Shown one piece after another: positions 39,590 to 57,017 of a stretch of DNA of 64,000 nucleotides (position 1 is its first letter; each line of letters begins with the position of its first letter). Source of the stretch: an uncultured Bacteroidota bacterium (GTDB taxonomy: Bacteria; Bacteroidota; Bacteroidia; Chitinophagales; Chitinophagaceae); contig CAIRYK010000042.1 in NCBI GenBank assembly GCA_903882805.1, positions 124,001 to 188,000 of the forward strand, in the 5' to 3' direction. Both the position numbers and the translations under genes were made by a program. The notes under the pieces were generated by a model, which did no database searches, was not told where the DNA came from, and saw nothing but the letters and a program-made list of their open reading frames with translations.

Positions 39590-42500
39590 TTATCGCAATA
39601 AGGTAATATTACCCTGATGTGATTCTATCTGGCCATCTTTAAACTTGGCTTCAATCTTGTAAATGTAGACGCCTTGAGGCTGCGGGGTATTGTTCAATGA
39701 ACCATCCCATCCTTGACCTTCTACTGTGCTCGATTCGAAAATCAGCTGACCCCACCGGTTGTATATACTCATTTTAAAGCTTGTTAGGCCTTTTGTCAAC
39801 AATGTTCTTGGGAAGAAGAAATCATTAACGCCGTCGCCATTTGGAGTAAACACACTTGGCATGCTAACGTAGCAATCGTTTGCCACCCATACGGTATCCG
39901 ATGTTGTACAACCATCTATGTTTACAACAGCAGTGTATGTACCTGGCTTGTTAACTACTATCGAAGGACCTGTTTCACCTGTGCTCCATTTCCAACGAGC
40001 GCTTGGGTTGGCAGAATTACGCTCATCTGTGATTTTGATTGGCTCTCCACCTGGGCATATTGCTTTATCCTCGCCTAAGTACATATCAGGTACTGGGAAT
40101 ACTCTTATCGATTTAGTAGACACCAATGAAGGGCAGGCTCTGTAGTTCACATCGGCCTTAATAGTCAGTGCGCCTGTATTATCAAACGAATGCAGCACTG
40201 GGTTTACATTCTTCATTGTTGTACCATCTCCGAAGTCCCAAATCACCTCTGTTTTACCAATAGTGGTAAACAACCCGGTAAATGTCACTTCTTGTCCGCG
40301 GCATATTACTGTATCAGTTGCCAGAATCTTGATCGGGCTAATTGAATCCACAGTTATCACTCCATATGCAGTATCAAAACAAGGAACTGAGTTTCCTGCT
40401 ATCAACATTATATTATAGGTACCAGTGTTGGCATACACATGCGATGTATTGAAGTTATTGTCTGTTTTACCATCGCCAAAATACCATGCAAATGTAGGAC
40501 TGGTGCCGGTAGACGTATCAGTAAATGTTACTGGCAAACCCTGACAAACATAAGGATAAGGCGAAATGGTAAATCCAGCGTCAATGAAGTTATTTAGGTT
40601 AACGGTCTGTGTCAATGAGTCAACACATTTACCGTTCGTAACTATCAATTGTACATTATAGCTTGCGCCCTTTGTATTTCTGTATATGTGTCTTGGGTTT
40701 GTTGCTGTATCGGTAGTTCCGTCGCCAAAATACCACTTGTAGGTAAGTTCAGCGGCTGGAGTAGATGAGTTGGTAAACAATACAGTATCGCCGCTACATC
40801 CTTCTCTTACAGAGAAATTATAACCTGCTCTGATAGCTGGAGCTCGCAACGGGATCAGCCCAGATGTAGCAGTGGTACAAACGCCTGCTGTGTGCACAAA
40901 GAACGAATTATAATCTGATTCGCAAAGCGCTGTAAGCTTCATAATACTATCAACGCCAATATATGCAGTAGCAGTTGTTGGCACGCCGCCTATTGTATAG
41001 CTCAATGTATCTAACTGAGCAGGATGCAAACCATATATTGTTATCTCGCCATCGCAGTAACCGCATTTTGCAGGCGGGTTTCCTGTAATTGTTCGGAGCG
41101 TAAACGGAGGATTGGTCAAATTCAATGGTCCGGCCGGGCGTGTTAGGCAATAACCCGATTTGATTACTATATTATCGTACACACCCGCAAGCAATCCTCG
41201 CAATGTGTCTGTTCCGTCGGCTTCGACGACAAACCCATATCCCGGTTGCGGCGTTGTATTGTAGTTATAGAACATGGTATCTACGTCGCCCGGATTGAGC
41301 AAACTAACTACTATGCTACCGTCCCTTGCCCCGCAATAAGTAGGACTCGTAAATCTGGCTGGCGAAGTAATGCGCGGAGTATCAATCCTAAACGGATAAT
41401 CAACAGCGCACTGATTAGTAACATCTGAGAAAATTGTGAGGTGGTAGCTACCCGGAGGCAAACTGTCTATAAACGAAGTCGTATCTACAAATGATTGTAT
41501 GGTATCCCCTATTACGTCGCTAACTTTTATACGCCATGGTTTACCTGTTCCACCGGGTATTACATAAAACGCAGCTTTACGAGCGCATGTAGCAGGTGCA
41601 ATAACAGAATCGCGTATAGTTGGCACAGGATATATTGTTATCGAAAATGCGTAAGTTTTTGATCCTACTGTTGGGCAATGGTCGTCCACAGCTGTTATAT
41701 AGAATACATAGTCGCCTGGCTGAACTACACCAGTAGTTGTAATCCATGAAAAATGCACATGCGGATGACTTGTGCCATTACTATCTACAACAAATACAGA
41801 GCCGGGAGGCAAACCTGTTGCGGTAACGGTTATATGGTTTGAAGTATCTGCTTCTCTGGGATTGATGTGCAAAGAAAAGGGACCGCTGTTTCCACATACT
41901 ACAAAGTGATGCGAGTCGGTAGTATCGCCGCCGGTAGTAGTAAATGAATCTATACCGCCGGTTGGGGCTGTAGTAGTACACGGCAACACAAGAAAGCTCA
42001 TTTCGCGCTGCATAGTGCCTACCATTATCGGACCTCTGTACTCACGTATATTGTAAACCACTACCGCACGCTGCGTGTAGGCATGAAAACATAGCTGCCC
42101 CGTTCTTGGGTCGAAAAAGAAGGTATAATCATGTACTCTGAGCGGAGTAGGTCCGCTTACCATTTGCACAGTTGGCAACAACCACGCTGTACCCACATAA
42201 CCAACTGGACCGCCAATAGCGCAGCTACCAGATCCGTTTGTAGCAGGAATGAGAGAAAACATCAAGCTGTCGCCTGCAGGACGGGTAAGGTAGTTAGTAT
42301 CGTACAGGTCCACAGCGCCCGGATTGTAGCAGTTGGTGTTGTCGTTACAAAAGAAAGGAACAGGCTCAACAGTCAGCACCGGACTTGAGTTATTAGGCAC
42401 GTCCAGATTATTCAACGTATCTATCAACTGCACAGTCGTTCCTCCAACAATGTTATCCAATGCGGCAGCACGACCAGAAGACTGACTTCCATTGTCTCCA

Positions 42501-42931
42501 GTATAAATGAATCTCCAAACACGAGAGGTGCGTGGTAATGTGTAGTTCAAGCTATAAACAAATTTTTTGATGCCCGGCGTAGCATAAGCAGTATTAGTAC
42601 ACTGCGTAGAATCGAGCATACGCGGACATACAGGCGAAACCTCTACACCGGCGCTTGGCGGCTCTATGGGCAAACGTATAGTAGCCACATTGGTAGGCCC
42701 GTCATAAATACATACCTCTGGCGTACCGGTAGGTAAGCCCGCAAACACCGGGCGACTTGGCAAACCGCAATCTCCATACAGTACAACTGTTATCTTGTAG
42801 GTATTGCCAGATATCCATTTGTAAAACAAGTCGGCGCCCACCACATGCGATGCATGAGCGCTAATGCTCAACATTATCAATGTTACCGAACATAAGAGGG
42901 CGCGTAACCAGGGTTGTATTAGTTTTTTCAT
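39590..42931 (-). CDS. Giant secreted PKD protein, paralogue 2
   Basis: 1113 residues. Signal peptide ends near AHA|SHVVG, followed by the shared N-terminal domain (FYKWISGNTYKIT, LYGDCG). The region that is nine repeats in paralogue 1 is here only two units (SPTYCGARDGSIVV and AKCGYCDGEITIYGL). Three PKD domains follow (YKWYFGDGTTD, FAWYFGDGKTD, VIWDFGDGTTM) and a C-terminal gliding-type domain (VFTPNGDGVNDFFFPR, YNRWGQLIFE, ending in GNITLLR). T9SS cargo by its C-terminus. Has its own promoter (43088) and terminator. Confidence 0.93.
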   Translation of the reverse strand: MKKLIQPWLRALLCSVTLIMLSISAHASHVVGADLFYKWISGNTYKITVVLYGDCGLPSRPVFAGLPTGTPEVCIYDGPTNVATIRLPIEPPSAGVEVSPVCPRMLDSTQCTNTAYATPGIKKFVYSLNYTLPRTSRVWRFIYTGDNGSQSSGRAAALDNIVGGTTVQLIDTLNNLDVPNNSSPVLTVEPVPFFCNDNTNCYNPGAVDLYDTNYLTRPAGDSLMFSLIPATNGSGSCAIGGPVGYVGTAWLLPTVQMVSGPTPLRVHDYTFFFDPRTGQLCFHAYTQRAVVVYNIREYRGPIMVGTMQREMSFLVLPCTTTAPTGGIDSFTTTGGDTTDSHHFVVCGNSGPFSLHINPREADTSNHITVTATGLPPGSVFVVDSNGTSHPHVHFSWITTTGVVQPGDYVFYITAVDDHCPTVGSKTYAFSITIYPVPTIRDSVIAPATCARKAAFYVIPGGTGKPWRIKVSDVIGDTIQSFVDTTSFIDSLPPGSYHLTIFSDVTNQCAVDYPFRIDTPRITSPARFTSPTYCGARDGSIVVSLLNPGDVDTMFYNYNTTPQPGYGFVVEADGTDTLRGLLAGVYDNIVIKSGYCLTRPAGPLNLTNPPFTLRTITGNPPAKCGYCDGEITIYGLHPAQLDTLSYTIGGVPTTATAYIGVDSIMKLTALCESDYNSFFVHTAGVCTTATSGLIPLRAPAIRAGYNFSVREGCSGDTVLFTNSSTPAAELTYKWYFGDGTTDTATNPRHIYRNTKGASYNVQLIVTNGKCVDSLTQTVNLNNFIDAGFTISPYPYVCQGLPVTFTDTSTGTSPTFAWYFGDGKTDNNFNTSHVYANTGTYNIMLIAGNSVPCFDTAYGVITVDSISPIKILATDTVICRGQEVTFTGLFTTIGKTEVIWDFGDGTTMKNVNPVLHSFDNTGALTIKADVNYRACPSLVSTKSIRVFPVPDMYLGEDKAICPGGEPIKITDERNSANPSARWKWSTGETGPSIVVNKPGTYTAVVNIDGCTTSDTVWVANDCYVSMPSVFTPNGDGVNDFFFPRTLLTKGLTSFKMSIYNRWGQLIFESSTVEGQGWDGSLNNTPQPQGVYIYKIEAKFKDGQIESHQGNITLLR

Positions 42932-43355: not shown

Positions 43356-46300
43356 TTATCTCAGCAATGTTACATTGCCTTTATAATGCTCTATCTGGCC
43401 ATCTTTGAATTTCACATCTATTACATAGATATAAACGCCGGCAGGTTGTGGAGTATTATTCAGACTACCATCCCATCCTTGTCCATCAATAGCATTTGCT
43501 TCATAAATCAATTGTCCCCAACGATTGTAAATATTCATGGTAAAGCTGGTCAAACCTCTTGACAACAACTGACGAGGGAAGAAGAAGTCGTTTACTCCAT
43601 CGCCGTTTGGTGTAAATATGTTTGGCATGCTCAGGTAGCAATCGTTTGCTACCCACACCGTATCAGCGTTTGTGCAACCGTCTACATTTACAACTGCGCT
43701 ATAATAACCTGGTTTTGTAACCACGATACCTGGTGTAGCTTCTCCTGTGCTCCATTTCCATCTTGCTGCCGGATTGCCCGAGTTACGATCGTCGTTTATT
43801 CTTATTGGCTCGCCGCCGGGGCACATCGCTTTGTCTTCGCCCAAATAAATATCAGGAACAGGAATTACATGTATTTTCTTTGTAGCCGTCAATTGAGGGC
43901 AGGCCCTGTACAACACATTAGCTGTGATAGTGAGCGAACCTGTATTATCGAAAGCATGAAGCACAGGATTTACGTTCTTAATACCATTGCCATCGCCAAA
44001 ATCCCAGTTTATTTCAGTTTTACCTATGGTAGTAAATAACCCGCTAAATGTAACCTCCTGACCGCGGCAAAGAACCGTATCAGTTGCAGCTATCTTAATA
44101 GGGCTTATCGAATCCACTGTTATTTGTCCGTACGCAGTATCATAACATGGCACGCTATTGCCCGCTATCAGCATTATTTTGTAAGTGCCTACACGTGCAT
44201 ATGTGTGCGTAGTATTGAAAGAATTATCAAAGGCGCCATCGCCAAAATACCATTGGAATGTTGGGCTGGTGCCGGTAGATGTATCTGTAAACGTTACTGG
44301 TGATCCCTGACAAACATATGGATATGGAGCGATAGTAAAGCCAGCGTCAATAAAGTTGTTCAGCACAACAGGCTGGGTCAGCGTATCCACGCACTTTCCA
44401 TTAGTTATGGTAAGATTCACATTATAGGTCATACCCTTAGTATTGATATAAACATGTTTCGGATTTGTTGCCGTATCTGTTGTTCCATCGCCAAAGGTCC
44501 ATTTGAAAGTTAGTTCAGAAAGTGGTGTAGAGTTATTAATAAACTGTACCGTATCTCCGGCGCAACCTTCTTTAACATTGAAGCCAAAACCGGCATTTAT
44601 AGCAGGCGCTCTGAGACTTACTAATCCCAAAGTGTTTGTTGTGCAAACTGCAGCAGTATGCACATAGAAACGGTCGTAATCGCCTTCGCACAAGCCGGTT
44701 ATTTTCATTATACTATCTGGCGCTATAAACCCTGTTGCTGTTTTAGGTACGCCGCCAAACAAATACTCAAGCGTATCCAACTGACCGGGATTTAAACCAT
44801 AGAGTGTAATTTCCCCATCGCAGTAACCACATTTTGTTGGAGCAACATAAGACAGCGTCCTTAAATTAAACGGAGGATTTACCAGATTCAACGGCCCAAC
44901 AGGTCGAGACATACAGAATCCTTGTTTAACCCTGATGTTATCATACACCCCGGCATACAACCCTCGCAGAGTGTCTGTACCGTCCGGTTCGACGACAAAT
45001 CCAACGCCTGGCTGAAACACGGTGTTGTAGTCAAAAAATGCAGTATCTACGTCTCCTGGCGTCAACCGACTCAATATGATTTTACCATCATTGGCTCCAC
45101 ACTGTGTTGGATTAGTAAATATGGCAGGCGATACAATAAGTGGAGTGTCTATAGTAAACGGATATACCACACCGCACTGGTTTGACACATCGGTATATAT
45201 AGTGATCCAATATCTTCCCGGAGGCAAACTATCAATAAACGCAGTAGTATCTACAAACGACTGAATAGTGTCTCCAATCACATCATTCACTTTTATACGC
45301 CACGGCTTACCTGTTCCGCCGGGAATGATATAAAAAGCAGATTTACGTGTACATGTTGCAGGAGATATTACGGAGTCCCTTACTGTAGGCACGGGGAAGA
45401 TAGTAACCGTAAATGCCAGCGTATTTGTACCTGTTATGGGGCAGTTGTCGTCGGTAAAATTGATATAAAAGGTATAGTCGCCAGGAGCAACAACGCCTGT
45501 AGTGGTAATCCACGTAAAATGTGCATGCGGGTGGCTTGTATTGTTACTGTCTACTGTGAACACAGCGCCCGGAGGTAAGCCCGTAGCAGTTACCGTAATA
45601 TGGTTTGATGTGTCTGGTTCTGTTGGGTTGAAGTGCAACGTAAATGATCCGCTATTACCGCACGCCACAAAGTGGTGGGAGTCAAGCGTATCGCCCGAAC
45701 CAGCAAACGAGTCAATATCCCCTGTAGGAGAAGTGTTTACGCAATCAATGATATTAAAACTCATTTCGCGCTGCATAGACCCCATAAAGGTATCATGTCT
45801 GAATTCGCGTATGTTGTATACAACTACCGCACGCTGCAAGGCAGTCGGATAAAAACAGATTTGGCCGGTAAACTGATTGAACGAAAAACCCGATGGAGTG
45901 CCGTCGCGCACTACCAGCGGCGTAGCTGCAGAAACTGCCTGTACAAAAGGAGTAGTCCATGCTGTACCTCTGTAAGTTACAGATCCGCCCACGGTACAAC
46001 CAGTACCGCCAGATCCGCTTGTTGCTGCTGTCAGGTAAAACATCAAGCTGTCGCCGCTGGGGTTGGTGCGGCTTGTATCATAAATATCTACCGCGCCTGG
46101 ATTGTAACAGTCCTCATCGTTGATGCAAAAGAATGGCGTAGGCACAACTGTAAGCACTGGGCTTGAGTTGGGGTGATAAAAGTTATCGAGCGTATCTATA
46201 AGCTGCATTGTAGTTCCGCCTAGTATATTGGTAAGCGCTGCCGCTCTACCGGCTGCAGAACCACCGCCGTTGCCGCCTGTATAAATTAAACGCCAGTTGT

Positions 46301-46709
46301 GCGCCGGACCAGAAAACGTATACGTATTCTTGTACGTAAACCTTTTAATACCCGGAATAGTATAGGCGGGGTTGGTACATTGTGTTAATGATGAGTCGCG
46401 GGGGCATACAGGAGTGATTTCTTTACCTGTGGTAGGCGCTATAATATTCAAATCTACCGACCCAACGGATGTAGACCCGTTATAGATACAAACGTGTGGA
46501 CGGGACGTAGGCAATGTAGAGAATGCCCCTGCGCTACTCGGTCCACAATCTCCGTAGAGATTTACCGTAATTTCGTACGTATTGCCGGAAATCCACTTAT
46601 AATACAGGTCGGCGCCTACTATGTGCGATGCACGAGCCCCTATGCCCATCAACACAATGACGCCTGTTAACAACAGGCAACGCAATAACAAGAGTACATT
46701 TCTTTTCAT
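43356..46709 (-). CDS. Giant secreted PKD protein, paralogue 3
   Basis: 1117 residues from the ATG at 46707-46709; a longer frame starts at 46877, but its first 56 residues precede the signal peptide and lie in promoter DNA. Signal peptide ends near ARA|SHIVG. Order as in paralogue 2: N-terminal domain (YYKWISGNTYEIT), two copies of the Cys-rich unit (TQCGANDGKIIL, TKCGYCDGEITLYGL), three PKD domains (FKWTFGDGTTD, FQWYFGDGAFD, INWDFGDGNGI) and the gliding-type C-terminal domain (IFTPNGDGVNDFFFPR, ending GNVTLLR). Very close to paralogue 2 along its whole length, so a recent duplication. Likely T9SS-secreted and bound to the surface. Confidence 0.92.
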   Translation of the reverse strand: MKRNVLLLLRCLLLTGVIVLMGIGARASHIVGADLYYKWISGNTYEITVNLYGDCGPSSAGAFSTLPTSRPHVCIYNGSTSVGSVDLNIIAPTTGKEITPVCPRDSSLTQCTNPAYTIPGIKRFTYKNTYTFSGPAHNWRLIYTGGNGGGSAAGRAAALTNILGGTTMQLIDTLDNFYHPNSSPVLTVVPTPFFCINDEDCYNPGAVDIYDTSRTNPSGDSLMFYLTAATSGSGGTGCTVGGSVTYRGTAWTTPFVQAVSAATPLVVRDGTPSGFSFNQFTGQICFYPTALQRAVVVYNIREFRHDTFMGSMQREMSFNIIDCVNTSPTGDIDSFAGSGDTLDSHHFVACGNSGSFTLHFNPTEPDTSNHITVTATGLPPGAVFTVDSNNTSHPHAHFTWITTTGVVAPGDYTFYINFTDDNCPITGTNTLAFTVTIFPVPTVRDSVISPATCTRKSAFYIIPGGTGKPWRIKVNDVIGDTIQSFVDTTAFIDSLPPGRYWITIYTDVSNQCGVVYPFTIDTPLIVSPAIFTNPTQCGANDGKIILSRLTPGDVDTAFFDYNTVFQPGVGFVVEPDGTDTLRGLYAGVYDNIRVKQGFCMSRPVGPLNLVNPPFNLRTLSYVAPTKCGYCDGEITLYGLNPGQLDTLEYLFGGVPKTATGFIAPDSIMKITGLCEGDYDRFYVHTAAVCTTNTLGLVSLRAPAINAGFGFNVKEGCAGDTVQFINNSTPLSELTFKWTFGDGTTDTATNPKHVYINTKGMTYNVNLTITNGKCVDTLTQPVVLNNFIDAGFTIAPYPYVCQGSPVTFTDTSTGTSPTFQWYFGDGAFDNSFNTTHTYARVGTYKIMLIAGNSVPCYDTAYGQITVDSISPIKIAATDTVLCRGQEVTFSGLFTTIGKTEINWDFGDGNGIKNVNPVLHAFDNTGSLTITANVLYRACPQLTATKKIHVIPVPDIYLGEDKAMCPGGEPIRINDDRNSGNPAARWKWSTGEATPGIVVTKPGYYSAVVNVDGCTNADTVWVANDCYLSMPNIFTPNGDGVNDFFFPRQLLSRGLTSFTMNIYNRWGQLIYEANAIDGQGWDGSLNNTPQPAGVYIYVIDVKFKDGQIEHYKGNVTLLR

Positions 46710-47167
46710 ACAGATATACGATAAAAAATAATTATAGGAATTAGTTACAAACATTTCAACCAAACACAAAAGTTTTGTCTGCAAGGCGATAACACCCTCA
46801 AACTCAGTCAAAGAGTAAAAATAGTCATTCCTTGGTAAAAAAGAAATAAATAAGCCGTAAATCCAATAAATATTCAAAAAATATCAGCGAATCTTTACAA
46901 AATATGCCCAAATCCGGAAGCGGAGATTACGATCCTTCCTGATCTTCGTTAAGCTGAAACCTAACTGCGACATCTGGATACAAACTACTGTAATATACCG
47001 GCTTTTAGTTATTTTGCTTCACTAGAAAATCACTGCCTAAGAAAACTATAATTACATTTTTCGCAATTTAATTAGATTCAGACCAAAACCTTTCTATATT
47101 CACACGCTCAAAACAGTTATAATTTAGTGTACAGGCATGTAGCTTATATGTTTTTCTTGCTTTACTA
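46710..47167. other. Divergent intergenic stretch, no gene found
   Basis: 458 bp between paralogue 3 (-) and the sensor kinase locus (+); it should hold promoters of both. It is AT-rich without a clear consensus box. At its right end a hydrophobic frame (LYVFLALLMVAC, lipobox-like) is open from 47121 into the kinase gene but has no usable start codon; see the finding on frame breaks. Confidence 0.6.
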
Positions 47168-47905
47168 ATGGTTGCATGCAAGCGACAAGGGCTTGTTGCA
47201 CCCAAGGGGTCTGCTCACCTTGATTGTATCCTTATCGTGGCCGAGCGAACTTTCGACTCAGGCCACAAAGACAAAGCCGTTAGCTTAGCAGCTACTGTAC
47301 ACAACAACTTACCAGATAAAACTGTCGCCGACGACATTAATTATTTTGCTTTCTGTACTGGAATTTTCAGAAGAGATCCACCCGACTACGACAAACTGCT
47401 CTTGTACGCCGATAGCTTAATTACTGTAATAGAGAAAAACAAGCTTTCTACTGTTATAGCTGACAGGTACATTATGGGGCTTAACCGTAAGGCCGATGCT
47501 CTTTTTGCAAAGGGGCAATATACAGATGCATACGGCTACTACTACAAAGCGAAAAAAAACGCTAAAGAAAATGGAGATTCGTGCTCATTGAGCAATTACA
47601 GCCATAGTTTGGGAATGGCGCTATACAAACAGCAAAAATATATTGATGCCGCGAAGCGGTTCATGGAATCTTATTCTGAATCCGCCGGGTGTCCCGACGA
47701 CTTCACGAGATTCTACCACCGTCAGGAACTTTTTGACAATATTGGCCTTTCTTATACCCATTCCCACCAATACGATAGCGCTATGGTATATTATCAGAAA
47801 GCGCTGGCGCTGATTAATGAAAACAAAAAAAATACGACAAAAATGAAAAGTACTTTATTTCGGCTACTGCTGTCATTATCGGCAATATGGCCGACGTTTA
47901 TATAG
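47168..47905 (+). CDS. TPR sensor part of a split histidine kinase
   Basis: 245 residues as read. It starts with MVACKRQG, the cleavage end of a lipoprotein signal whose front half is missing from this frame, then TPR-like helices (ADALFAKGQYTDAYGYYYKA, LGMALYKQQKYIDAAKRF, YDSAMVYYQKALALIN). After codon 219, at an A8 run, the frame leaves the TPR pattern and soon ends; the -1 frame continues the TPR perfectly (YDKNEKYFISATAVIIGN, then MADVYIAV) into the kinase gene. The natural product is therefore one protein of about 680 residues. The break is a sequencing error, a real mutation or a ribosomal frameshift. Confidence 0.7.
   Translation: MVACKRQGLVAPKGSAHLDCILIVAERTFDSGHKDKAVSLAATVHNNLPDKTVADDINYFAFCTGIFRRDPPDYDKLLLYADSLITVIEKNKLSTVIADRYIMGLNRKADALFAKGQYTDAYGYYYKAKKNAKENGDSCSLSNYSHSLGMALYKQQKYIDAAKRFMESYSESAGCPDDFTRFYHRQELFDNIGLSYTHSHQYDSAMVYYQKALALINENKKNTTKMKSTLFRLLLSLSAIWPTFI
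47825..47833 (+). other. A8 run: frame break or -1 slippery site
   Basis: Eight A followed by T. In the upstream frame the codons are AAC AAA AAA AAT, so A AAA AAT (47827-47833) fits the X XXY YYZ slippery pattern. Slipping back by one base restores the TPR reading frame of the kinase. I see no obvious pseudoknot behind it. Confidence 0.6.
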
Positions 47906-49206
47906 CGGTCAAAAATCCGGACACCGCTATTGCACTTCTAAAACAAAGCAAAAACATAAACCTGCAAAAAGGCTATGTAAACTCTGATGCGCTAACAGAC
48001 CACATAAAGTTAGCAAACATATATTTTAATATTGGCCACACAGCAGAATTAAAGCAAACGCTTGAGCTGATTAAAGCTGAACTGGACACTATACCCGATA
48101 ACATTGCGCGGCTTAATTGGCAACAGCTTATGTGGCGACTATACGATACAGAAAAAGATTCTGTACGCGCATACAGACATCTATGCGCTTACGAAAAACT
48201 CAGAGACTCTATGCGGGTGCATAATACCGCATTGATGGCTACCGATTTAGACGGAAGAATTCATAGCATGGAACGACAATACCCAATTGCGTTGCTCAAT
48301 AAAAACAGTAAAACGGCTAAAATATACTTGTTAATTGCTGTACTTATCACAATCATGACGTTGGTGATTGTTTTGCTTATTTGGCGCAATGCCCGCAGAG
48401 ACAGAAAGAACTTAATTACTCTCACCAAATTGAACAAACAAATTACCAACCAAAAAGAACAGCTGATAGCCGCGCTCAACGAACTGGAAATAAAAGATAA
48501 AGATAAAACCCGTATCCTAAGATCTGTAGCGCACGATGTGATGAATCCTATTGCAGCCATTATGGCTTTAACAGATATACTAAGAATGGACCTAGATAAA
48601 GTTACAGAAGAAAACGACAATATACTTAATCTTATCAAAGAGGCTTGCGCGAACTCACTATCGCTAAGTAAGGAAATACTAGAAGCCGCTGTAAAAATTG
48701 ACAAAGCTAAATTGGTTAAAGACAATGTGAACATCATTCAGCTCGTAGCCAATTGTGTTGATTTACTTAGGCAAACAGCAGCGTCGAAAAAGCAACGAAT
48801 CATTCTAAAAACAAATATCAGCGAGTTAATATTGAAGGTTAATAAGGAACAAATATGGAGGATACTCAACAATCTAATTGCTAATGCCATAAAATTCAGC
48901 TATCCCGAATCTGATATATTTGTAAACATTACTACCATCAATAATGTTGTGAGAATTTCTGTGCAAGATCATGGCATAGGCATCCCCGATAAAAATAAAG
49001 GACTGGTGTTCGATATGTTTACAGAGGCAAAAAATACAGGCACTGCCGGAGAAACCCCTCATGGACTGGGATTATCAATATCGCTGCAAATTGCAAAAGC
49101 ACATAATGGAAATATATGGCTGGAAAGTGAACAAGAAAAGGGAACGACTTTTTATCTTGATTTGCCACTATATGAAACTAGCGTCGCTGACGTGCAAAGA
49201 GCTTAA
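47887..49206 (+). CDS. Sensor histidine kinase, kinase part
   Basis: 439 residues as an open frame, but the Met at 47887 lies inside a TPR helix, so this is the second half of the gene that begins before 47168. Order: TPR remainder (about 1-120), membrane helix (about 146-165), coiled coil, dimerisation domain with the phospho-His in RSVAHDVMNPIAA (His216), and ATPase domain with NNLIANAIKFS, VQDHGIGIPDKNKG and GLGLSIS. Membrane-bound sensor with TPRs on the outer side. The response regulator gene lies 228 bp downstream. Confidence 0.88.
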   Translation: MADVYIAVKNPDTAIALLKQSKNINLQKGYVNSDALTDHIKLANIYFNIGHTAELKQTLELIKAELDTIPDNIARLNWQQLMWRLYDTEKDSVRAYRHLCAYEKLRDSMRVHNTALMATDLDGRIHSMERQYPIALLNKNSKTAKIYLLIAVLITIMTLVIVLLIWRNARRDRKNLITLTKLNKQITNQKEQLIAALNELEIKDKDKTRILRSVAHDVMNPIAAIMALTDILRMDLDKVTEENDNILNLIKEACANSLSLSKEILEAAVKIDKAKLVKDNVNIIQLVANCVDLLRQTAASKKQRIILKTNISELILKVNKEQIWRILNNLIANAIKFSYPESDIFVNITTINNVVRISVQDHGIGIPDKNKGLVFDMFTEAKNTGTAGETPHGLGLSISLQIAKAHNGNIWLESEQEKGTTFYLDLPLYETSVADVQRA

Positions 49207-49434
49207 AAAACCGGAAATAAATAACACATTTCTTCATATTATCGACAAAATAGTAGATTTCATTGTTATTTGATGGTTAAAAATAGCAACAATCCCTTAC
49301 CAAAGACCCATATTAGCGATTCCAAAATACATAAGCATCTTTTTTTAGATTTTTTAGCAGATATTTGCCAAACAGCATATAATTTTATACATTATTTGCA
49401 GGAATTGGTAGAAACCTCTATTTTAAAAAACCAC

Positions 49435-49836
49435 ATGCCCAATATACTAGTTATAGAAGATGACGATATTATGCTCAAGGCTATACGAAACATTCTTAAT
49501 AAGGATGGGTTCAATGTAGTGACTGCGCAAAATGGCAAAGAGGCTTTTGAGATGCTGGATACCGCAACTTACGACATAGTGCTTACCGACCTGATGATGC
49601 CTTATGCCAACGGTCTGGAGGTTGTGAGCCGAATACGAAACGACAACGACAAAAGAGGGGTTGGCATTATTGTTGTTTCGTCGGTAGGTAATGAAGAAAC
49701 CATAACTGAAGCTTTTAGACTTGGCGCAGACGATTACCTAAAAAAACCAATTATGGCTGGCGAATTACTTACGCGCATACGCAAACTACTGGCCAACAAA
49801 AACAGTAAGACACAGTTTGTAACCAAAAAAAAATAG
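49435..49836 (+). CDS. Single-domain response regulator
   Basis: 133 residues from the ATG at 49435; a frame from 49270 adds 55 residues that do not belong to the fold. A receiver domain only: acidic pocket IEDDD (residues 6-10), phospho-acceptor Asp52 in VLTDLMMP, the switch residue Ser in IVVSSVG and Lys in YLKKPI. There is no output domain, so it must act by protein contact, CheY-like. Between the kinase and the helical-repeat protein, it probably carries the signal to one of the envelope proteins downstream. Confidence 0.9.
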   Translation: MPNILVIEDDDIMLKAIRNILNKDGFNVVTAQNGKEAFEMLDTATYDIVLTDLMMPYANGLEVVSRIRNDNDKRGVGIIVVSSVGNEETITEAFRLGADDYLKKPIMAGELLTRIRKLLANKNSKTQFVTKKK

Positions 49837-49846
49837 GAATTAATTC

Positions 49847-51001
49847 ATGTGGAGTGACCTTGTAGATTTACTATTATCGGCTTACGAACAATATAGCTTA
49901 CTCCCGCTTTTTATTGAAATTGCGCTTGCATTTATTGTAATTGCAATAATTGCTACAATTACAGCCTACACGTCCATATTGGTGCGCCGATACAGAGCAT
50001 ATGTACATCAAAAAAGAGTAGCCTACCTAAGTCCAAAAATTGAAGACCTTATTACAGAACAGGTATTGCTCAACGAAAATATGGACAAAGACCTACCCAT
50101 AGAATCGATTGAGTTTGACAAAGACGCGCTAAACAATAAAATATACAAAAAAGAAGAAGTAAGACAAATACTCATTGACACGCTGATTCGCTACCGGAAA
50201 AATTTTCGCGGCGAGGTGGGTGAATTGTTACGCAAACTTTATGTAGATATGAATCTGCAGGAAGATTCGTACAAAAAAATGAAATCGCGCAAATGGGAAC
50301 AAAAAATACGCGCACTGTCTGAACTGACGCAGATGGACATTGCCATTGCCGACGTTACCTTGCTTCCGCTCACCAACAGCCGAAATTCTACACTACGAGC
50401 TGCAGCCCGTAATGCATACATACAGCTAAGTAAAAACGAGCCTTTCAAGTTTTTTGATATCGCCACCGAACCAATTTTGCCCTGGGACCAGCTAGAAATG
50501 TTTAAAATTATTACTTCGAGCAAAGATATAGCCATACCAAACTTCGCTCGTTATGTTAGCTATTCGTCTAATAAAAGTATAGTGTCTTTTTGCCTGAAAC
50601 TAATTGCACACTACGACCAACAAAGCGCCATACCGGCAGTAACCAACTTGCTTGAAACAAAAGATCACTACTTCAGAGCTAATGCTATTAACTGTCTGGG
50701 TAAACTATCGGCAGAATCAATAGAGCATAAATTGGCTTTTATGTACAATAGTCAGCCAATTATTTGTCAGGTAGAAATACTGCGGGCAATGGGCGCTATT
50801 GCTTCCGGAAAGCACCTCGATTTTCTAAAAAGCGAATTTTTATATTCTTTCAATTTCGAAATTCAGATGGCTGCAGCAAGGGCTATCATTTCCCACAATA
50901 CGCAGGCGTCGAGAGCGATGCTCAATGAATTGATGGAAACAACCGATGAGGGAACTAAACTTATTATTAAACACTGCCAAAATCCACTTATTAAGTACTA
51001 A
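49847..51001 (+). CDS. Membrane-anchored HEAT-like repeat protein
   Basis: 384 residues. One membrane helix near the N-terminus (about 21-45), then a basic stretch and a mostly helical part with pairs of helices typical of HEAT/armadillo-like repeats (SKDIAIPNFARYVSYSSNK, then DQQSAIPAVTNLLETKDHYF and ANAINCLGKLSAES). Probably a scaffold on the cytoplasmic face of the inner membrane. It starts 10 bp after the response regulator, so the two are co-expressed, and precedes the glycosyltransferase gene. I do not recognise a named family. Confidence 0.8.
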   Translation: MWSDLVDLLLSAYEQYSLLPLFIEIALAFIVIAIIATITAYTSILVRRYRAYVHQKRVAYLSPKIEDLITEQVLLNENMDKDLPIESIEFDKDALNNKIYKKEEVRQILIDTLIRYRKNFRGEVGELLRKLYVDMNLQEDSYKKMKSRKWEQKIRALSELTQMDIAIADVTLLPLTNSRNSTLRAAARNAYIQLSKNEPFKFFDIATEPILPWDQLEMFKIITSSKDIAIPNFARYVSYSSNKSIVSFCLKLIAHYDQQSAIPAVTNLLETKDHYFRANAINCLGKLSAESIEHKLAFMYNSQPIICQVEILRAMGAIASGKHLDFLKSEFLYSFNFEIQMAAARAIISHNTQASRAMLNELMETTDEGTKLIIKHCQNPLIKY

Positions 51002-51045
51002 TACAGAAAAAATAAACGATATAACTACCATCAATTACAACCCAT

Positions 51046-51078
51046 TTTGTTATTTAGCTGGTACTTTCGCTACATTTG
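51046..51078 (+). promoter_or_regulatory. Promoter of the glycosyltransferase and TPR-barrel genes
   Basis: TTTG at 51046-51049, a 21-bp spacer, and TACATTTG at 51071-51078, a good Bacteroidota promoter. The transcript would start near 51085 and have a leader of about 170 bases before the ATG at 51255. Confidence 0.6.
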
Positions 51079-51254
51079 CATAGCAACATATGATTTTTTT
51101 ATCAATTAACAACAAGTCATCACCACTAAACAGGAGTTGATAACCTTTGTAAGAAGAAAAAACACCAGATAGATTACCTTCAGCGCAGAAATGAATATTT
51201 AAGTGTTTGTGATTATTAATTGAAGCGGCGATAACTCAACTGAATGAAACTAAG

Positions 51255-52784
51255 ATGAAAGTAATTACCGATTTTTTTACCAGAGGCAATTTTTTTGAAA
51301 CTATAGGTATCTTCTACCAGTATGTCGTATTTATATACGGAACATCGCTGTTGATGATATATGGTGTTCTGGCAATTATGTCGCTTACCTCCATCATCAG
51401 ATACATGAAAAAAAATGCATCTGTTGATTACAATATTATTGTGGAATCCCCCCTCGCTCCTGGAATATCTGTTATAGCGCCGGCGTTCAATGAGGGCGTT
51501 ACTATCATTTCCAATGTCCGATCGCTGCTTACATTCAACTATCCAAAATTTGAAGTAATCATTATTAATGATGGTAGTACCGATGATACCCTTGAAAAAT
51601 TAATTACTGAGTTTGAAATGGTGGAAGTTGAGTATGCCTATCGCGAAAAACTAAACTGCAAACCTGTAAAGAGAATTTTCAGATCTACTAACCCTGCGTA
51701 TGACAAGCTATCGGTAGTAGACAAAGTAAACGGAAAAAGTAAGGCCGACGCATCGAACGCGGGTATCAATATCTCGGCGTTCGATTATTACTTGTGTACG
51801 GACGTGGATTGTATCTTGGATAAAGACACGCTTATAAAGCTGATTAAACCCTTTATGGACGAGGAAACCACCATTACAAAAGAGGTGAATGGCGATGTTC
51901 TTATTGAAGATGATTACAAGCGAGTTATAGCATCGGGCGCAACACTGCGCATGGTAAACTCGTGCGATGTAGATGAGGGCTTGCTCATTCGTGCACGCCC
52001 ACCACGCCGTTTTCTGCCACGTTTTCAGGAAATGGAATACATACGCGCCTACTGTCTTGGTAAAATGGGTTGGGATTTGATTAATGCAGTACCCAACGTA
52101 TCGGGAGGTTTAGGAATGTTTGACAAGGAAATATCTGTGAAAGCGGGTGGATATGATTCTCAATCATTTGGTGAAGACATGGACCTCATTACGCGCATGG
52201 GCGCCTACATGACAGACAATAATAAAAAATACTCTGTAAAGTACGTGCCGGTTACATTGTGCTGGACCGAAGGCCCTGCTACACTCAAGGTATTTGGCCG
52301 TCAGCGTAGCCGTTGGGCGCGCGGACTTGCTCAGATCATGAGTATACATCGCAAAATACTATTCAACCCGCGCTATGGCCGTATGGGTTTGATCGTGTTC
52401 CCATATCACTTTTTATATGAATTGTTGGCGCCTATCATTGAATTTTTAGGAATTCTTTTTTACATTTACCTCATATTAACAAACCAAATCAACTGGCCGT
52501 ACGCCATCATACTCATAATATTTGTATATACATACTCTGTTATGATTACCACACTGGCCTTGCTTTGGGATCAAATTACTTTTAAATACTATAAAACATG
52601 GGGCGAAACAATAGGATTATGCCTTATGGCTTTCATTGAGCCATTTGTTTACCATCCACTTATTGTGTTCTTTGCTCTTAAAGGATATTATAACTTTGTT
52701 ACCGGCCGTAAGCACGTTTGGGGCAATATGCAACGACAAGGCTTGGGGGCGCAAAAGAAAAAAACACCCGCAAAAGCTGGCTAA
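51255..52784 (+). CDS. Processive family 2 glycosyltransferase (PgaC/hyaluronan-synthase-like)
   Basis: 509 residues. Two N-terminal membrane helices (about 20-50), then the GT-A domain: PAFNEG (76-81), NDGSTDD (105-111), TDVDC (182-186, DxD-like), FGEDMDL (305-311, catalytic Asp) and QRSRW (350-354, the QxxRW motif of processive synthases). Two to four helices follow (about 378-475). Enzymes of this layout make and push out a polysaccharide chain such as poly-GlcNAc, hyaluronan or cellulose across the inner membrane. Its partner, 24 bp downstream, is a TPR/outer-membrane barrel protein. Confidence 0.92.
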   Translation: MKVITDFFTRGNFFETIGIFYQYVVFIYGTSLLMIYGVLAIMSLTSIIRYMKKNASVDYNIIVESPLAPGISVIAPAFNEGVTIISNVRSLLTFNYPKFEVIIINDGSTDDTLEKLITEFEMVEVEYAYREKLNCKPVKRIFRSTNPAYDKLSVVDKVNGKSKADASNAGINISAFDYYLCTDVDCILDKDTLIKLIKPFMDEETTITKEVNGDVLIEDDYKRVIASGATLRMVNSCDVDEGLLIRARPPRRFLPRFQEMEYIRAYCLGKMGWDLINAVPNVSGGLGMFDKEISVKAGGYDSQSFGEDMDLITRMGAYMTDNNKKYSVKYVPVTLCWTEGPATLKVFGRQRSRWARGLAQIMSIHRKILFNPRYGRMGLIVFPYHFLYELLAPIIEFLGILFYIYLILTNQINWPYAIILIIFVYTYSVMITTLALLWDQITFKYYKTWGETIGLCLMAFIEPFVYHPLIVFFALKGYYNFVTGRKHVWGNMQRQGLGAQKKKTPAKAG

Positions 52785-52808
52785 CTTAACAATTAAATAC
52801 AACTAAAA

Positions 52809-55712
52809 ATGAGATCACCATCCAGATTGGTGTTATTTATTTTATTTTCTTTTTTGTGTATTACGTCTAATGCCCAATGGCTCAAAAAAGGTGAGTCATC
52901 CGACGATTTGTATAAAGAAGCAAAAAAAGAAATTGAACTAAAACACTACCAGAAGGCAATCAATCTATGCAACAAAGCAATAGATATATCGCCAAAAAAC
53001 CTTGATCTCTACTTATTGTTGGGTCGCTCGTTTGCTCTTGCCGGCAAGGTAGACAGCGCGCGACTGGAACTGAACTATGTAATACAAAAGAGCCCAAAAT
53101 ATAAAGACGCATACATATACCTTATTAATGTAGAGGTTGTGGCATGTAACTATGCTCAGGCGCTGGAATATGCCGACATGGGATTGAAACAATTTCCCAA
53201 CGACAGAGAAATACTACTAAAGAAACTGGATATATACAACAAAGAGGGCGACTGGATAGAAAGCAACAAACTATCGGAATACCTTTTTGACAGATATAGC
53301 GGCGACGGAGAAATCCGTAAAATATTCCTTGACTATAAACTTACTCTTGCCCGGCAGTATTCGCACCGCGGATATATTGAAATTGCTAAACGCGCTTACG
53401 AATCTGTACTGGAACAAGACCCACTGAACAAAGAAGCGCTACAGGCAGTATTTGCACTTGATGTGCGCTCGGGCAACTACGAAAGTTCACTAGCTTATAC
53501 CAATCGCGCTCTGCAATCTACCCCAAACTCCTATGAATTTCTGCTGAAGAAAATAAGTATTCTCGACGCTATGTCGCGCTATGTAGAGGCTATTGCGGTT
53601 GTAGAAAAACTATTGAAGCTGTTCCCATCCAATCCCGAAGTACAAAAGCTGAATATTTACCTGCGCATGGAAGCCGGCCGATACTATATGAACACTGATC
53701 CTTACCTTCAGTTTCAGGCGGTGCTGGATAAAGAGCCAAACAATCGCGACGCGCTCAATTATGTTATAAACATAGCCTATAGCCGCGGCCTGCTCAATGA
53801 TGCATTGTCTTGGGCAAACGTAGGGCTGAAAAAGAACCCGAACGACCGCGAACTCCTGACAAAAAAAATGGGGGCGCTGGAAGGACTTAAACGCTACGGC
53901 TCAGCTTCAAATATTGCAGAAACTATCTACAAAAGCAGCCCATCGCCAGCCAACAAAGAGAACTTTGTAGAACTGAGAACGCTTGCGGCAAAACAATACA
54001 TGAATGACATGGAATACGACAGTTCTATTACTGCGCTCAAGTCTGTTTTGTTTTACGACCACTCAAATATCACAGCGCTCAACTATCTTACCAACACCTA
54101 CATAGCGCAAAAACGCTACGATGATGCCTTGCATACCATTGACGAGGCGCTTACCTACTATCCCGGCGATGAAAAACTACTGTATAAAAAAGCGGGTGTA
54201 TTGGAGTCTTATCAAAAATTCTCGGATGCTGCCCTAATCAGTAAACAGCTGCTTCAAAAATACCCCGACAGCCGCCCCTATCTGGTTGCCTTTGTAGAGC
54301 AATCGTTGCAGGCTGGTCGTCAGTCTATGCAATACGATGACTTTAATGGCACAGTGTCCATTCTTCGCGATGTATTGGAAAAACAACCCGACAATGTGGA
54401 CGCGCTTAACTATATCATCAATATAGAATCCTCTTTTAAAAACTTCGATTCTGCAATTATCTATTGCGATCAGGCTTTGAAATATTATCCCGACAATCGC
54501 GACTTCCTGCTCAAGAAATCATCGGTGTATGCTGATGCTAAGAACTTCCCAGCGGCATACGAAATCTCTGGCAAACTCTACAACAACTATCCATACAACA
54601 GCAAAATAAGAAATACTTATGTTGACCAACTTTTAGGTTCTGGCCGCATGTACATTGCCGGTGATAAGTTGGACAGCGCGCTTATTGAGTTTTATCGCGG
54701 ACTTGCAGTGGCGCCAAACGATACAATGCCGCTGTTTTACACTATAAATGTGTTGATAGCACAGCAGACCTACGACACTGCGCTTGCTCTCGTGGAACGC
54801 GGTAGAAGACTATATCCAAACAATCCCTTCTTCCTGATGAAAAGGGCGATAATTTATGAAAACCAATTGAACTGGAACGATGCTTGGAAATCTGCAGATA
54901 CGCTATCGCGCATGACACAAGACCCTAAACACCTTGATTATGCCCGCTACCTTTATAGTCGCCGGCTGAAAAACGAGATTGGCATATTCTACTTGCGCTC
55001 GCGTATCATGGACACTACTAAGGATCAGTTCAACAGCATTGGCACAGTACAATACTCGCGCCGATGGAGGAGAGGAACTATTACCGGTCGCGTAAACTAT
55101 GCAGGCCGTTTCATAGGAACAGGTTACCAATTTGAAGCCGAGACCTACTACAACCATAGTCCGGCATGGTATTCGTTTGCTGTAGCAGCCTACTCGCCTA
55201 CTACAGTTATCTTCCCCAAACTCCGTCTTGGTTATTCGCTCACCCACGCCTTCAGGAAAGGCTATGAAGCGGAAGTAGGTATTCGTTACCTACAGGCCGA
55301 TAGCGGAACTATTTTATCGGGCCTTGTAGCTGTAGGGCGAGAAATCAACGATTTCTACTTCAATGTGAAAGGATACGTAATGAACCTTACACGTTTGGAT
55401 AATTCAACAGGGCTTTATTATGCCGGCGTATTGACCGGAAGATTCTATCTTAATAACCGGACAGAATATTTCTCAGCTATAGCCGGATATGGTACCGCCC
55501 CGGATGACTTCAGCCTTAACTACAACCTTACCAGGTCGCTGACCTACAGTACGGTGAGCGTGGGGGCAGGTTACACCAAAGTGCTGCAATACCGTACTTC
55601 AATAGGTATTTTCGGATCGTGGTACAATGTAAAAACCGGCTTAGACAGGTCGGAAAGAGAAACATTCCGCAACCAATACGACATTTACCTTACCCTGCTA
55701 AGAAGATTCTAA
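52809..55712 (+). CDS. TPR protein with C-terminal YaiO-like outer-membrane barrel
   Basis: 967 residues. Signal peptide ends near SNA|QWL. From about 30 to 725 there is an almost continuous series of TPR repeats (AINLCNKAIDISPKNLDLYL; ALEYADMGLKQFPNDREILL; DDALHTIDEALTYYPGDEKL). Residues 740-967 are a beta-barrel with YaiO features (QYSRRWRRGTITGRVNYAGR, LRLGYSLTHAFRKGYEAEVG, ending in the aromatic YLTLLRRF). The layout equals PgaA of the poly-GlcNAc system: periplasmic TPRs plus an export barrel, though the barrel family differs. It probably carries the polymer of the upstream glycosyltransferase across the outer membrane. Confidence 0.88.
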   Translation: MRSPSRLVLFILFSFLCITSNAQWLKKGESSDDLYKEAKKEIELKHYQKAINLCNKAIDISPKNLDLYLLLGRSFALAGKVDSARLELNYVIQKSPKYKDAYIYLINVEVVACNYAQALEYADMGLKQFPNDREILLKKLDIYNKEGDWIESNKLSEYLFDRYSGDGEIRKIFLDYKLTLARQYSHRGYIEIAKRAYESVLEQDPLNKEALQAVFALDVRSGNYESSLAYTNRALQSTPNSYEFLLKKISILDAMSRYVEAIAVVEKLLKLFPSNPEVQKLNIYLRMEAGRYYMNTDPYLQFQAVLDKEPNNRDALNYVINIAYSRGLLNDALSWANVGLKKNPNDRELLTKKMGALEGLKRYGSASNIAETIYKSSPSPANKENFVELRTLAAKQYMNDMEYDSSITALKSVLFYDHSNITALNYLTNTYIAQKRYDDALHTIDEALTYYPGDEKLLYKKAGVLESYQKFSDAALISKQLLQKYPDSRPYLVAFVEQSLQAGRQSMQYDDFNGTVSILRDVLEKQPDNVDALNYIINIESSFKNFDSAIIYCDQALKYYPDNRDFLLKKSSVYADAKNFPAAYEISGKLYNNYPYNSKIRNTYVDQLLGSGRMYIAGDKLDSALIEFYRGLAVAPNDTMPLFYTINVLIAQQTYDTALALVERGRRLYPNNPFFLMKRAIIYENQLNWNDAWKSADTLSRMTQDPKHLDYARYLYSRRLKNEIGIFYLRSRIMDTTKDQFNSIGTVQYSRRWRRGTITGRVNYAGRFIGTGYQFEAETYYNHSPAWYSFAVAAYSPTTVIFPKLRLGYSLTHAFRKGYEAEVGIRYLQADSGTILSGLVAVGREINDFYFNVKGYVMNLTRLDNSTGLYYAGVLTGRFYLNNRTEYFSAIAGYGTAPDDFSLNYNLTRSLTYSTVSVGAGYTKVLQYRTSIGIFGSWYNVKTGLDRSERETFRNQYDIYLTLLRRF

Positions 55713-55931: not shown

Positions 55932-57017
55932 ATGAAGCAATCTTTTGTAAAGCTGCCAAAGCTAATGGCGGCAATTTTTATTTTTTCAGGTATTACAGGG
56001 CGCGCACAAGATGCAAAAACACTTGCCTACCCCGACGAAAAACACTTTAAAAACATTAGACAGCTTACCACCGGCGGCGACAACGCTGAGGCTTATTTTG
56101 GCTTTGACAATGAGCACGTAACTTTCCAACGCACCAACCCTGCCGAAGGCATAAATTGCGACCAGATATTTTATGGTACGCTACCTAAAAAATCCGGCGA
56201 GAAATTTAAGTACAAAAGGGTAAGTACTGGTAAAGGCCGCACAACCTGCGCCTACCTTATGCCCGACCGCAAACACCTGCTTTATGCATCTACGCACCTT
56301 GCTGCCGATACCTGCCCGCCAACACCCGATCGCAATGTGATTAAAAAGTATGTTTGGCCTATATATAGCACCTACGACATTTTTGTTGCCGACTTTAACG
56401 GCAAGGTTACCAAAAAGCTTACCAACACACCCGGCTACGACGCAGAAGCGACAATATCGCCCGACGGTAAGAAAATAGTGTTTACAAGTATGCGCAATGG
56501 CGATATCGACCTGTATACTATGAACATAGACGGCACCAATGTAAAGCAAATAACCACCACACTTGGCTACGACGGCGGCGCTTGTTTCTCGCCCGATAGC
56601 AAAAAAATAGTATGGCGCGCTTCTCGCCCTGAGTCGGAAGAAGCGGCCAGAGAATATAAAGAACTGCTTGCGCAGGGATTGGTAATGCCTACAAAAATGG
56701 AGTTGTTTGTTGCAAATGCAGATGGTACAGACGCACACCAGGTAACCAAATTAGGTAAAGCAAACTGGGCGCCCGCATTTATGCCCGATGGCAAACGCCT
56801 TATATTTGCATCAAACCACACAACAGAGCGAGGATTCCCTTTCAACCTCTATATCGTAAATATAGACGGAACAGGACTGGAGCGTATATCAAATGATAAG
56901 AGCTTCGACGCCTTCCCAATGTTCTCCCCTGATGGCAAAAAACTAATTTTTAGTTCGAACCGCAATAACAATGGTGGTCACGACACCAACGTATTTATCT
57001 GCGACTGGGTAGACTAG
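55932..57017 (+). CDS. Secreted TolB-like beta-propeller (PD40 repeats)
   Basis: 361 residues with a signal peptide ending near GRA|QDA. The rest is a propeller with WD40-like PD40 blades: ATISPDGKKIVFTSMRNGDI, ACFSPDSKKIVWRASR, AFMPDGKRLIFASN and MFSPDGKKLIFSSNRN. Relatives include TolB, and free-standing PD40 proteins are common in Bacteroidota envelopes. No peptidase or OmpA domain is attached, so it is a pure propeller. Its own promoter and terminator make it a single-gene unit. Confidence 0.88.
   Translation: MKQSFVKLPKLMAAIFIFSGITGRAQDAKTLAYPDEKHFKNIRQLTTGGDNAEAYFGFDNEHVTFQRTNPAEGINCDQIFYGTLPKKSGEKFKYKRVSTGKGRTTCAYLMPDRKHLLYASTHLAADTCPPTPDRNVIKKYVWPIYSTYDIFVADFNGKVTKKLTNTPGYDAEATISPDGKKIVFTSMRNGDIDLYTMNIDGTNVKQITTTLGYDGGACFSPDSKKIVWRASRPESEEAAREYKELLAQGLVMPTKMELFVANADGTDAHQVTKLGKANWAPAFMPDGKRLIFASNHTTERGFPFNLYIVNIDGTGLERISNDKSFDAFPMFSPDGKKLIFSSNRNNNGGHDTNVFICDWVD

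Follow-up and report, generated by a model that had tools for sequence, protein, structure and literature searches.

A receiver, a HEAT-repeat protein and a GT2 synthase encoded together across Bacteroidota: a putative exopolysaccharide cluster in a Chitinophagaceae genome

PgaC and NfrB, well-studied Gram-negative synthases of the family 2 glycosyltransferase (GT2) kind, are switched by cyclic di-GMP (c-di-GMP), as passages of PMC8461298 and PMC8669472 describe. How are such synthases switched in bacteria without a GGDEF gene? The question is raised by a locus in an uncultured member of the Chitinophagaceae (Bacteroidota). The window, that is, the whole stretch of 64,000 nucleotides analysed here (assembly GCA_903882805.1, contig CAIRYK010000042.1, positions 124,001 to 188,000), carries on its plus strand genes for a standalone receiver, a membrane-anchored HEAT-repeat protein (hereafter HEAT), a GT2 and a tetratricopeptide repeat (TPR) protein with a YaiO-family barrel. 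The genome (4.94 Mb in 95 contigs, 98.4% complete) gave no GGDEF match in a search that was positive in 8 of 14 control genomes, which agrees with a preliminary description of the locus that had noted no c-di-GMP enzyme. No GGDEF gene was found in any of the 39 genomes, this one included, that have a strict match to our HEAT profile, and for these the cluster names the candidate parts of a switch: a receiver, a HEAT adaptor, a GT2 and an exporter. We read the four as an exopolysaccharide machine in which HEAT and GT2 form a constant core, the input is exchangeable and the receiver acts by contact, and we give this reading a probability of a little under 0.6.

Recurrence of the cluster across the phylum

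Our wide survey used a sample of 395 genomes of the phylum. The HEAT profile gave 42 matches in the 39 genomes, and all 41 matches outside the window were taken for the neighbourhood count: a GT2 gene of the same family adjoins the HEAT gene on the same strand in every one of them, 25 of them have a standalone receiver gene on that strand no more than 300 bp away, 36 have one within 6 kb, and 35 have a match to the YaiO profile within 6 kb. Searched from the side of the synthase, with a GT2 profile at E 1e-80, 94 of the 395 genomes had matches; at the 104 evaluable loci (of 105 outside the window) a HEAT gene is adjacent in 100 cases (101 by threshold, L234 being discounted as an overlap artefact) and 80 of the 104 have a standalone receiver no more than 6 kb away. 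A control of 254 kb, made up of 200 kb of a genome of the same genus and the remainder of the window, holds one standalone receiver and no match to the HEAT profile. The clustering is far beyond chance.

Split by taxonomy, the 50 GT2 loci of the window's class have HEAT in all 50, a receiver in 45, a YaiO match in 45 and a GGDEF protein in none, and the 54 loci of other classes have HEAT in 50 (after the discount of L234), a receiver in 35, a YaiO match in 20 and a GGDEF protein in 15. Recurrence in other genomes, on which the preliminary description had made its own proposal depend, is thus borne out: receiver, HEAT and GT2, often with a TPR-YaiO gene, are found together phylum-wide, and this is a real, conserved and widespread synthase-dependent system. 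Among the matches listed by our literature searches (titles and openings of abstracts, with few subscription journals or preprints) we recognised no receiver-HEAT-GT2 polysaccharide system, and the terms HEAT, Bacteroid, YaiO and response regulator are absent from the main text of PMC7112194. A contig labelled Beijerinckiaceae (Pseudomonadota; L074) carries a cluster of the Chitinophagaceae type; the bin is probably mislabelled or mixed, or else the cluster was transferred.

Receivers and GGDEF proteins beside the HEAT-GT2 pair

What stands beside the pair is exchanged between lineages. Within 6 kb, 77 of the 104 GT2 loci have a receiver only, 12 a GGDEF protein only, 3 have both and 12 have neither; all 15 loci with a GGDEF protein lie outside the window's class. 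The GGDEF-only loci are 8 of the 9 in family f38, 3 of the 4 in f34 and the single one in f64. We identify f38 with the green sulfur bacteria because 8 of 8 genomes tested encode the FMO protein. The GGDEF proteins are varied in build: that of L245 has the architecture CHASE3-GAF-PAS-GAF-GGDEF, its sister locus L246 has an HD-domain (HD_5) protein slightly further upstream, and in L259 (f34) GGDEF is fused with two receivers. On a quick GT2 tree (FastTree, with long branches flagged) three changes of the GGDEF label are required, with f38 standing apart from the group of f34, f56 and f64. Since either a receiver or a GGDEF protein sits beside HEAT and GT2, HEAT suggests itself as the point at which the signal enters.

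The three loci with both a receiver and a GGDEF protein belong to one family, f56. Pfam finds GGDEF and EAL domains in L257 and L258, and L288 was seen by the GGDEF profile only. The receivers of these loci have E, E and Q at the site of the phospho-acceptor Asp. As the Asp has been lost where a GGDEF protein is present, this fits a receiver that has turned into a plain subunit.

The locus in the window

The preliminary description had read a row of plus-strand genes from a TPR kinase through receiver, HEAT-like protein and GT2 to a TPR-YaiO protein. The last four are intact; the kinase is not, its halves lying in different frames.

The HEAT gene (49847-51001, plus strand) starts 10 bp past the stop codon of the receiver gene and encodes one hydrophobic segment, both as first described. 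The protein scores 39.7 bits against Pfam HEAT_2 (PF13646; cut-off 27.7), its HEAT matches in Pfam and NCBIfam being altogether generic or weak, and its AlphaFold2 (AF2) model (pLDDT 85.2, pTM 0.72) is a solenoid, helical throughout, whose nearest solved folds in a Foldseek search are designed HEAT-like alphaRep proteins, armadillo designs and the PP2A scaffold. All 99 HEAT neighbours examined have a hydrophobic segment, located anywhere in the protein. In the window it spans residues 18-36 and is followed by basic residues, which by the positive-inside rule should place the predicted solenoid in the cytoplasm. The near-obligatory pairing of HEAT with GT2 points to HEAT as a component of the synthase, in the way that PgaD belongs to PgaC (passages of PMC8461298). 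Elsewhere in the sample the family varies in build: the HEAT protein of L139 (1693-3492) has two LysM stretches, and those of L158-L162, L164 and L170 have long extensions (526-935 residues), mostly without a Pfam match in the five that were scanned (L158, L159, L161, L162 and L170).

The receiver gene (49435-49836, plus strand; PF00072, 106.5 bits) has a longest open reading frame (ORF) that begins at TTG 49270; the alignment favours ATG 49435. Numbered from there, its product has the phospho-acceptor D52, as the preliminary description had it, together with K104, and no output domain. D52 is kept in 26 of 26 aligned rows, members of the window's clade included, and in 79 of 85 neighbouring receivers of the wide sample (those without the Asp being the three in loci with GGDEF plus L145, L147 and L225), which suggests that phosphorylation matters. 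Known response regulators without an output domain include those of the CheY type. The window's protein resembles them in its single receiver domain, phospho-acceptor Asp and conserved Lys, and differs in being tied genetically to a polysaccharide synthase and HEAT, not to the flagellar motor. In the clade of Flavipsychrobacter stenotrophus a second receiver gene follows the first. In two of its four loci (L056 and L057) a transmembrane helix followed by a linker forms the N-terminus of this second product, an arrangement that would position the receiver at the membrane; the corresponding segment of L055 and L107, weaker or truncated, stays under the threshold used.

The GT2 (51255-52784, plus strand) is of the processive type according to Pfam, NCBIfam and alignment. 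It carries a DG motif and, as had been claimed, DxD, ED and QxxRW, in the forms NDGS, TDVD, GED and QRSRW; an alignment of the window with 25 relatives shows NDGS, TDVD, ED and QRxRW unchanged in all 26 rows. Among the 78 named loci of near relatives, from Flavipsychrobacter, Taibaiella and Chitinophaga, among others, most of the complete ones have a receiver, HEAT, two tandem GT2s (GT2a and GT2b) and a TPR-YaiO protein; the window's enzyme is the counterpart of GT2b. Full HEAT and GT2b are present in 67 of the 78 and in the window (n = 68), and of these 57 have at least two GT2 genes and 11, the window included, a single one. A CxxC insert (mostly PCPECGY-like) between DxD and ED of the second GT2 is found in exactly the 57 double-GT2 loci. 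The window's enzyme has no such insert, and none occurs in the 104 GT2 genes of the wider sample. Where most near relatives have GT2a the window has a gap (51002-51254) with no remnant of it, blastx against GT2a proteins giving nothing below E 4.7.

On the HEAT tree the single-GT2 loci, F. stenotrophus being one such relative, form two separate clades of 7 and 4, none of the 7 loci in the window's clade has GT2a, and double GT2 and CxxC insert have changed jointly twice. The window locus is a reduced form of the cluster. From these patterns we infer that GT2a and GT2b may form a heteromer that uses the CxxC loop, and that the window's lineage runs on GT2b alone. We do not regard the link between insert and GT2a as established: all 68 of the 68 loci agree, yet on the tree they amount to only 2 independent pairs (sign test p 0.5).

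Further variants of the synthase were seen. L071 (5974-7530) and L099 (2120-3604) have a third GT2 between the usual two; it is divergent, sharing 41 and 45% identity with the enzyme of the window. In L149 (8731-12183), L171 (9176-12865) and L223 (5480-9271) the GT2 has a C-terminal domain of the sulfatase superfamily (PF00884), and in L217 (8976-11426) such a domain with TPRs forms a separate gene adjoining the exporter gene. We rejected a true sulfatase: the formylglycine pattern matched one of five sequences (L171, judged to be outside the usual setting). The PF00884 partners have a Thr in a GGRTF-like stretch and no clear formylglycine motif, so that a phospho-transferase of the LtaS or phosphoethanolamine (pEtN) type is presumably more likely.

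The last gene of the row (52809-55712, plus strand) begins 24 bp downstream of the GT2 and encodes the proposed exporter, a protein of 967 residues with a TPR superhelix and a C-terminal outer-membrane barrel of the YaiO family (PF19413, 99.5 bits against a cut-off of 23.9; TIGR04390, 66.1 against 32), which agrees with the earlier account. Its AF2 model (pLDDT 87.5, pTM 0.47) has helical repeats and then a beta-barrel of 14 strands at residues 722-966, the figure of 14 being a count of the listed model elements. With the whole model, a fold search listed 50 matches, by title all helical-repeat proteins; the barrel sequence alone reached a best E of 0.31 against solved structures. The barrels of PgaA, BcsC and NfrA have 16 strands (passages of PMC9384988 and PMC8669472). 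Taken together, the predicted functions of these genes point to a synthase-dependent exopolysaccharide machine, whose product would be a polymer passed outward.

Alternatively, the GT2 could modify a lipid or a protein, with no exported polymer at all and with the TPR-YaiO protein as an unrelated neighbour. This would suit the loci of other classes, 34 of 54 of which have no exporter profile within 6 kb. However, the motif of the QxxRW type that marks processive enzymes does not vary, YaiO lies within 6 kb in 45 of the 50 loci of the window's own class and the two genes are 24 bp apart in the window, and we regard the idea as extremely improbable. Family f25 has two loci in which a DUF4838 protein is encoded near YaiO and the receiver (L219, 4288-6522; L222, 9723-11915), its hexosaminidase-type matches (Glyco_hydro_20b or NAGLU_N) falling below threshold. 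That the polymer is a modified amino-sugar is a guess.

Upstream of the receiver lie the two parts of a TPR sensor kinase. The N-terminal part (47168-47905, plus strand) consists of TPRs (Pfam TPR_12, 42.5 bits) and shares 38-48% identity with the corresponding part of five intact kinases; the C-terminal part (47887-49206, plus strand) has a transmembrane segment (a hydrophobic stretch at 148-166), HisKA (PF00512, 26.7 bits, just below the cut-off of 26.9) and HATPase_c (PF02518, 89.5 bits). The residue given as His216 in the preliminary description is indeed the histidine of AHDVMN, numbered in the 47887 ORF. In blastx the five intact kinases (L049, L050, L052, L059 and L061) match the window in two segments that are collinear but differ in frame: the first ends at 47824 and the second starts at 47830 (three of the five references) or at most 24 bases later; the frame switch falls on or just after a run of eight A residues (A8, 47825-47832). 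It may be an assembly error. ATG 47148 is out of frame with the downstream kinase sequence. A lipoprotein-like signal stands upstream of 47168 in the frame of the N-terminal part. The frame is open from 47123 on, and none of ATG, GTG and TTG occurs in it before 47168.

Of 13 kinase orthologues examined, three have frame breaks, at different places in the gene: that of the window, L046 and L038 (a fragment). Within the window's clade L032, L034, L035 and L053 gave no kinase match above 60 bits upstream of the receiver, with 2.8-8.3 kb available, and in L033 and L065 the upstream DNA is too short to judge. Searches of whole genomes gave nothing better than kinase matches of 35-36% in G030 (59% complete, which makes absence there weaker) and G031; in G016 they gave a partial match of 51%, located where a contig ends. 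Since no aligned row lacks D52, those of the window's clade included, the receiver probably obtains its phosphate from a kinase encoded elsewhere. About 25 kb past the end of the window the same contig encodes a paralogous TPR kinase (G000:C42:213131-214432; 36% identity, a 694-residue open frame, one TAA noted within the match), a candidate phosphate donor.

Receivers of this build may also be diffusible relays or phosphate sinks, of which Spo0F and DivK are examples. Were this one a relay or sink of neighbouring kinases, it would be clustered for co-expression, and HEAT and GT2 would be controlled by expression or substrate. A kinase-profile match within 7 kb in 25 of the 50 loci of the window's class lends this some weight, as do the hybrids among the kinases scanned, with two receivers (L216, L163 and L069) or an Hpt domain (L216 and L158). 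We nevertheless hold it to be unlikely, given a receiver that in 25 of 41 cases is encoded within 300 bp of HEAT and in the same direction, is retained where a kinase was not found, has a transmembrane helix of its own in L056 and L057 and is degenerate in the three loci that have GGDEF too.

A second possibility, that the system is decaying in this genome and the module is constitutive or idle, we find distinctly improbable. The A8 break and the lack of a usable start for the kinase signal, the breaks at different places in 3 of 13 orthologues and the loss of GT2a and the CxxC insert throughout the window's clade of 7 would all accord with decay. Yet the frames of receiver, HEAT, GT2 and exporter are all open. 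The window and L032 share 85% identity in HEAT and 88% in GT2, and the single-GT2 form persists, as its two clades attest.

The next gene after the exporter (55932-57017) encodes a PD40 beta-propeller protein (Pfam); it was left out of the cluster because it had no match among the relatives' ORFs compared. Related reference ORFs were available for 12 ORFs of the window, 8 of which matched in one frame alone. The exporter was matched in more than one frame by 1 of 39 references, the C-terminal kinase piece by 10 of 12 and the minus-strand ORFs 34108-39303 and 39590-42931 by 3 of 3 and 5 of 5, so that further frame breaks or repeats nearby are possible. A third long minus-strand ORF next door (43356-46877) ends with FTPNGDGVNDFF, which is reminiscent of type IX secretion C-termini, and a minus-strand protein at 21399-24014 with a receiver match (61 bits) is probably a hybrid kinase.

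Known systems and the proposed mode of control

The preliminary description had likened the order of synthase and exporter to PgaC and PgaA of the poly-N-acetylglucosamine (PNAG) system, and the likeness itself stands. In PgaABCD of E. coli, too, a processive GT2 has an inner-membrane partner and the exporter combines TPRs with a beta-barrel, and of nine E. coli K-12 proteins PgaC is the closest to the window's GT2 (24% identity over 370 residues, E 1e-21); YaiP and NfrB were rejected as its closest kin, PgaC being closer. Identity with the PNAG system did not hold. The GT2 scores 110.6 bits against the PgaC/IcaA cut-off of 422.3 (TIGR03937) and the exporter 56.4 against the PgaA cut-off of 366.65 (TIGR03939). 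Seven locus proteins were scanned with Pfam and NCBIfam; as had been stated, no deacetylase is among them, PgaB included, the rest of the genome lying outside this search. HEAT gave no blastp match to PgaD, and control by c-di-GMP through PgaD was not found: HEAT and a receiver stand where the PNAG system has PgaD and c-di-GMP (passages of PMC8461298). The barrel is predicted to have 14 strands, against 16 in PgaA (passages of PMC9384988). That the locus is a Pga system with divergent parts, as its nearness to PgaC and the shared logic of synthase and TPR-barrel protein might suggest, is very unlikely, and membership is refuted by the cut-offs.

Two other E. coli systems come to mind. NfrAB (Nfr/NGR) likewise joins a GT2 synthase to a TPR-barrel outer-membrane protein, but NfrB has its own c-di-GMP-binding MshEN-like domain and the NfrA barrel is 16-stranded (passages of PMC8669472); the window's GT2 matches NfrB at no better than E 0.12 in blastp and has no MshEN among its Pfam hits. 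The yaiO-yaiP-yaiS stretch has a YaiO-family outer-membrane protein near a GT2 gene, and differs in that YaiP matches the window's GT2 at 23% (E 6e-7), in that a putative deacetylase, YaiS, adjoins, with none found among the window's locus proteins, and in that no HEAT or receiver is annotated in the part examined.

In the mechanism that we favour for the receiver-HEAT-GT2-exporter cluster, the GT2 would polymerise sugar on the cytoplasmic face and move the chain through the inner membrane, and the TPR-YaiO protein would take it across the periplasm and out of the cell. HEAT, with one helix in the inner membrane, would be the regulatory partner of the synthase. The receiver, phosphorylated on D52, would touch HEAT or the HEAT-GT2 complex and would not act through transcription; receiver and HEAT would then serve as c-di-GMP and PgaD do for PgaC. 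For the control by protein contact that the preliminary description had suggested, support is indirect. The input would be exchangeable, a phospho-receiver in the window's class and a GGDEF protein in the green sulfur bacteria and a small number of further lineages. Because the local kinase is broken, in this genome either another kinase would load the receiver or the switch would be stuck.

A bolder form of the proposal we put forward only tentatively, at less than even odds: HEAT may be a near-obligatory and so far undescribed regulatory subunit of polysaccharide synthases throughout the phylum, and an input socket, which takes a phospho-receiver where there is no c-di-GMP and a c-di-GMP signal or a GGDEF protein in green sulfur bacteria and other lineages, with a receiver that cannot be phosphorylated where both are present. 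In Chitinophagaceae the socket might also serve a synthase pair joined through the CxxC loop.

Several observations weigh against control by receiver contact through a constant core. The kinase gene is broken in this assembly, and whole-genome searches found no orthologue at E 1e-60 in four close relatives (G003, G023, G008 and G011), the absence being weaker for G003 (82% complete) and G023 (78%); with the gene broken and no orthologue in the four, the signal input through a TPR kinase described earlier is unsupported in this genome. Outside the window's class the YaiO exporter profile is found at just 20 of 54 loci, and at 0 of 9 in green sulfur bacteria, and 12 of the 104 loci have neither a receiver nor a GGDEF protein within 6 kb. 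Receivers without D52 occur outside GGDEF loci as well (N in L145, E in L147, T in L225), and the loss of the Asp beside GGDEF may be one event, as it concerns the single family f56. Neighbours of GT2 made up part of the input to the iterated HEAT profile, which makes the weakest HEAT calls partly circular; scores are lower outside the window's class, the green sulfur bacterial loci reaching just 52-76 bits, and calls there depend in part on gene position. Nor is the absence of GGDEF a special mark of genomes with HEAT, and we rejected it as evidence: GGDEF occurs in 203 of the 395 sampled genomes, only two of these (G076 and G260) belong to the window's class, and the absence is class-wide.

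If the proposal is true, it would provide a function for a conserved protein whose HEAT matches in Pfam and NCBIfam are generic or weak. Nature also offers a control, in that lineages differ in whether a related HEAT-GT2 core is accompanied by a receiver or by a GGDEF protein. The cluster gives a hint of how a slime coat may be turned on in bacteria that have no c-di-GMP.

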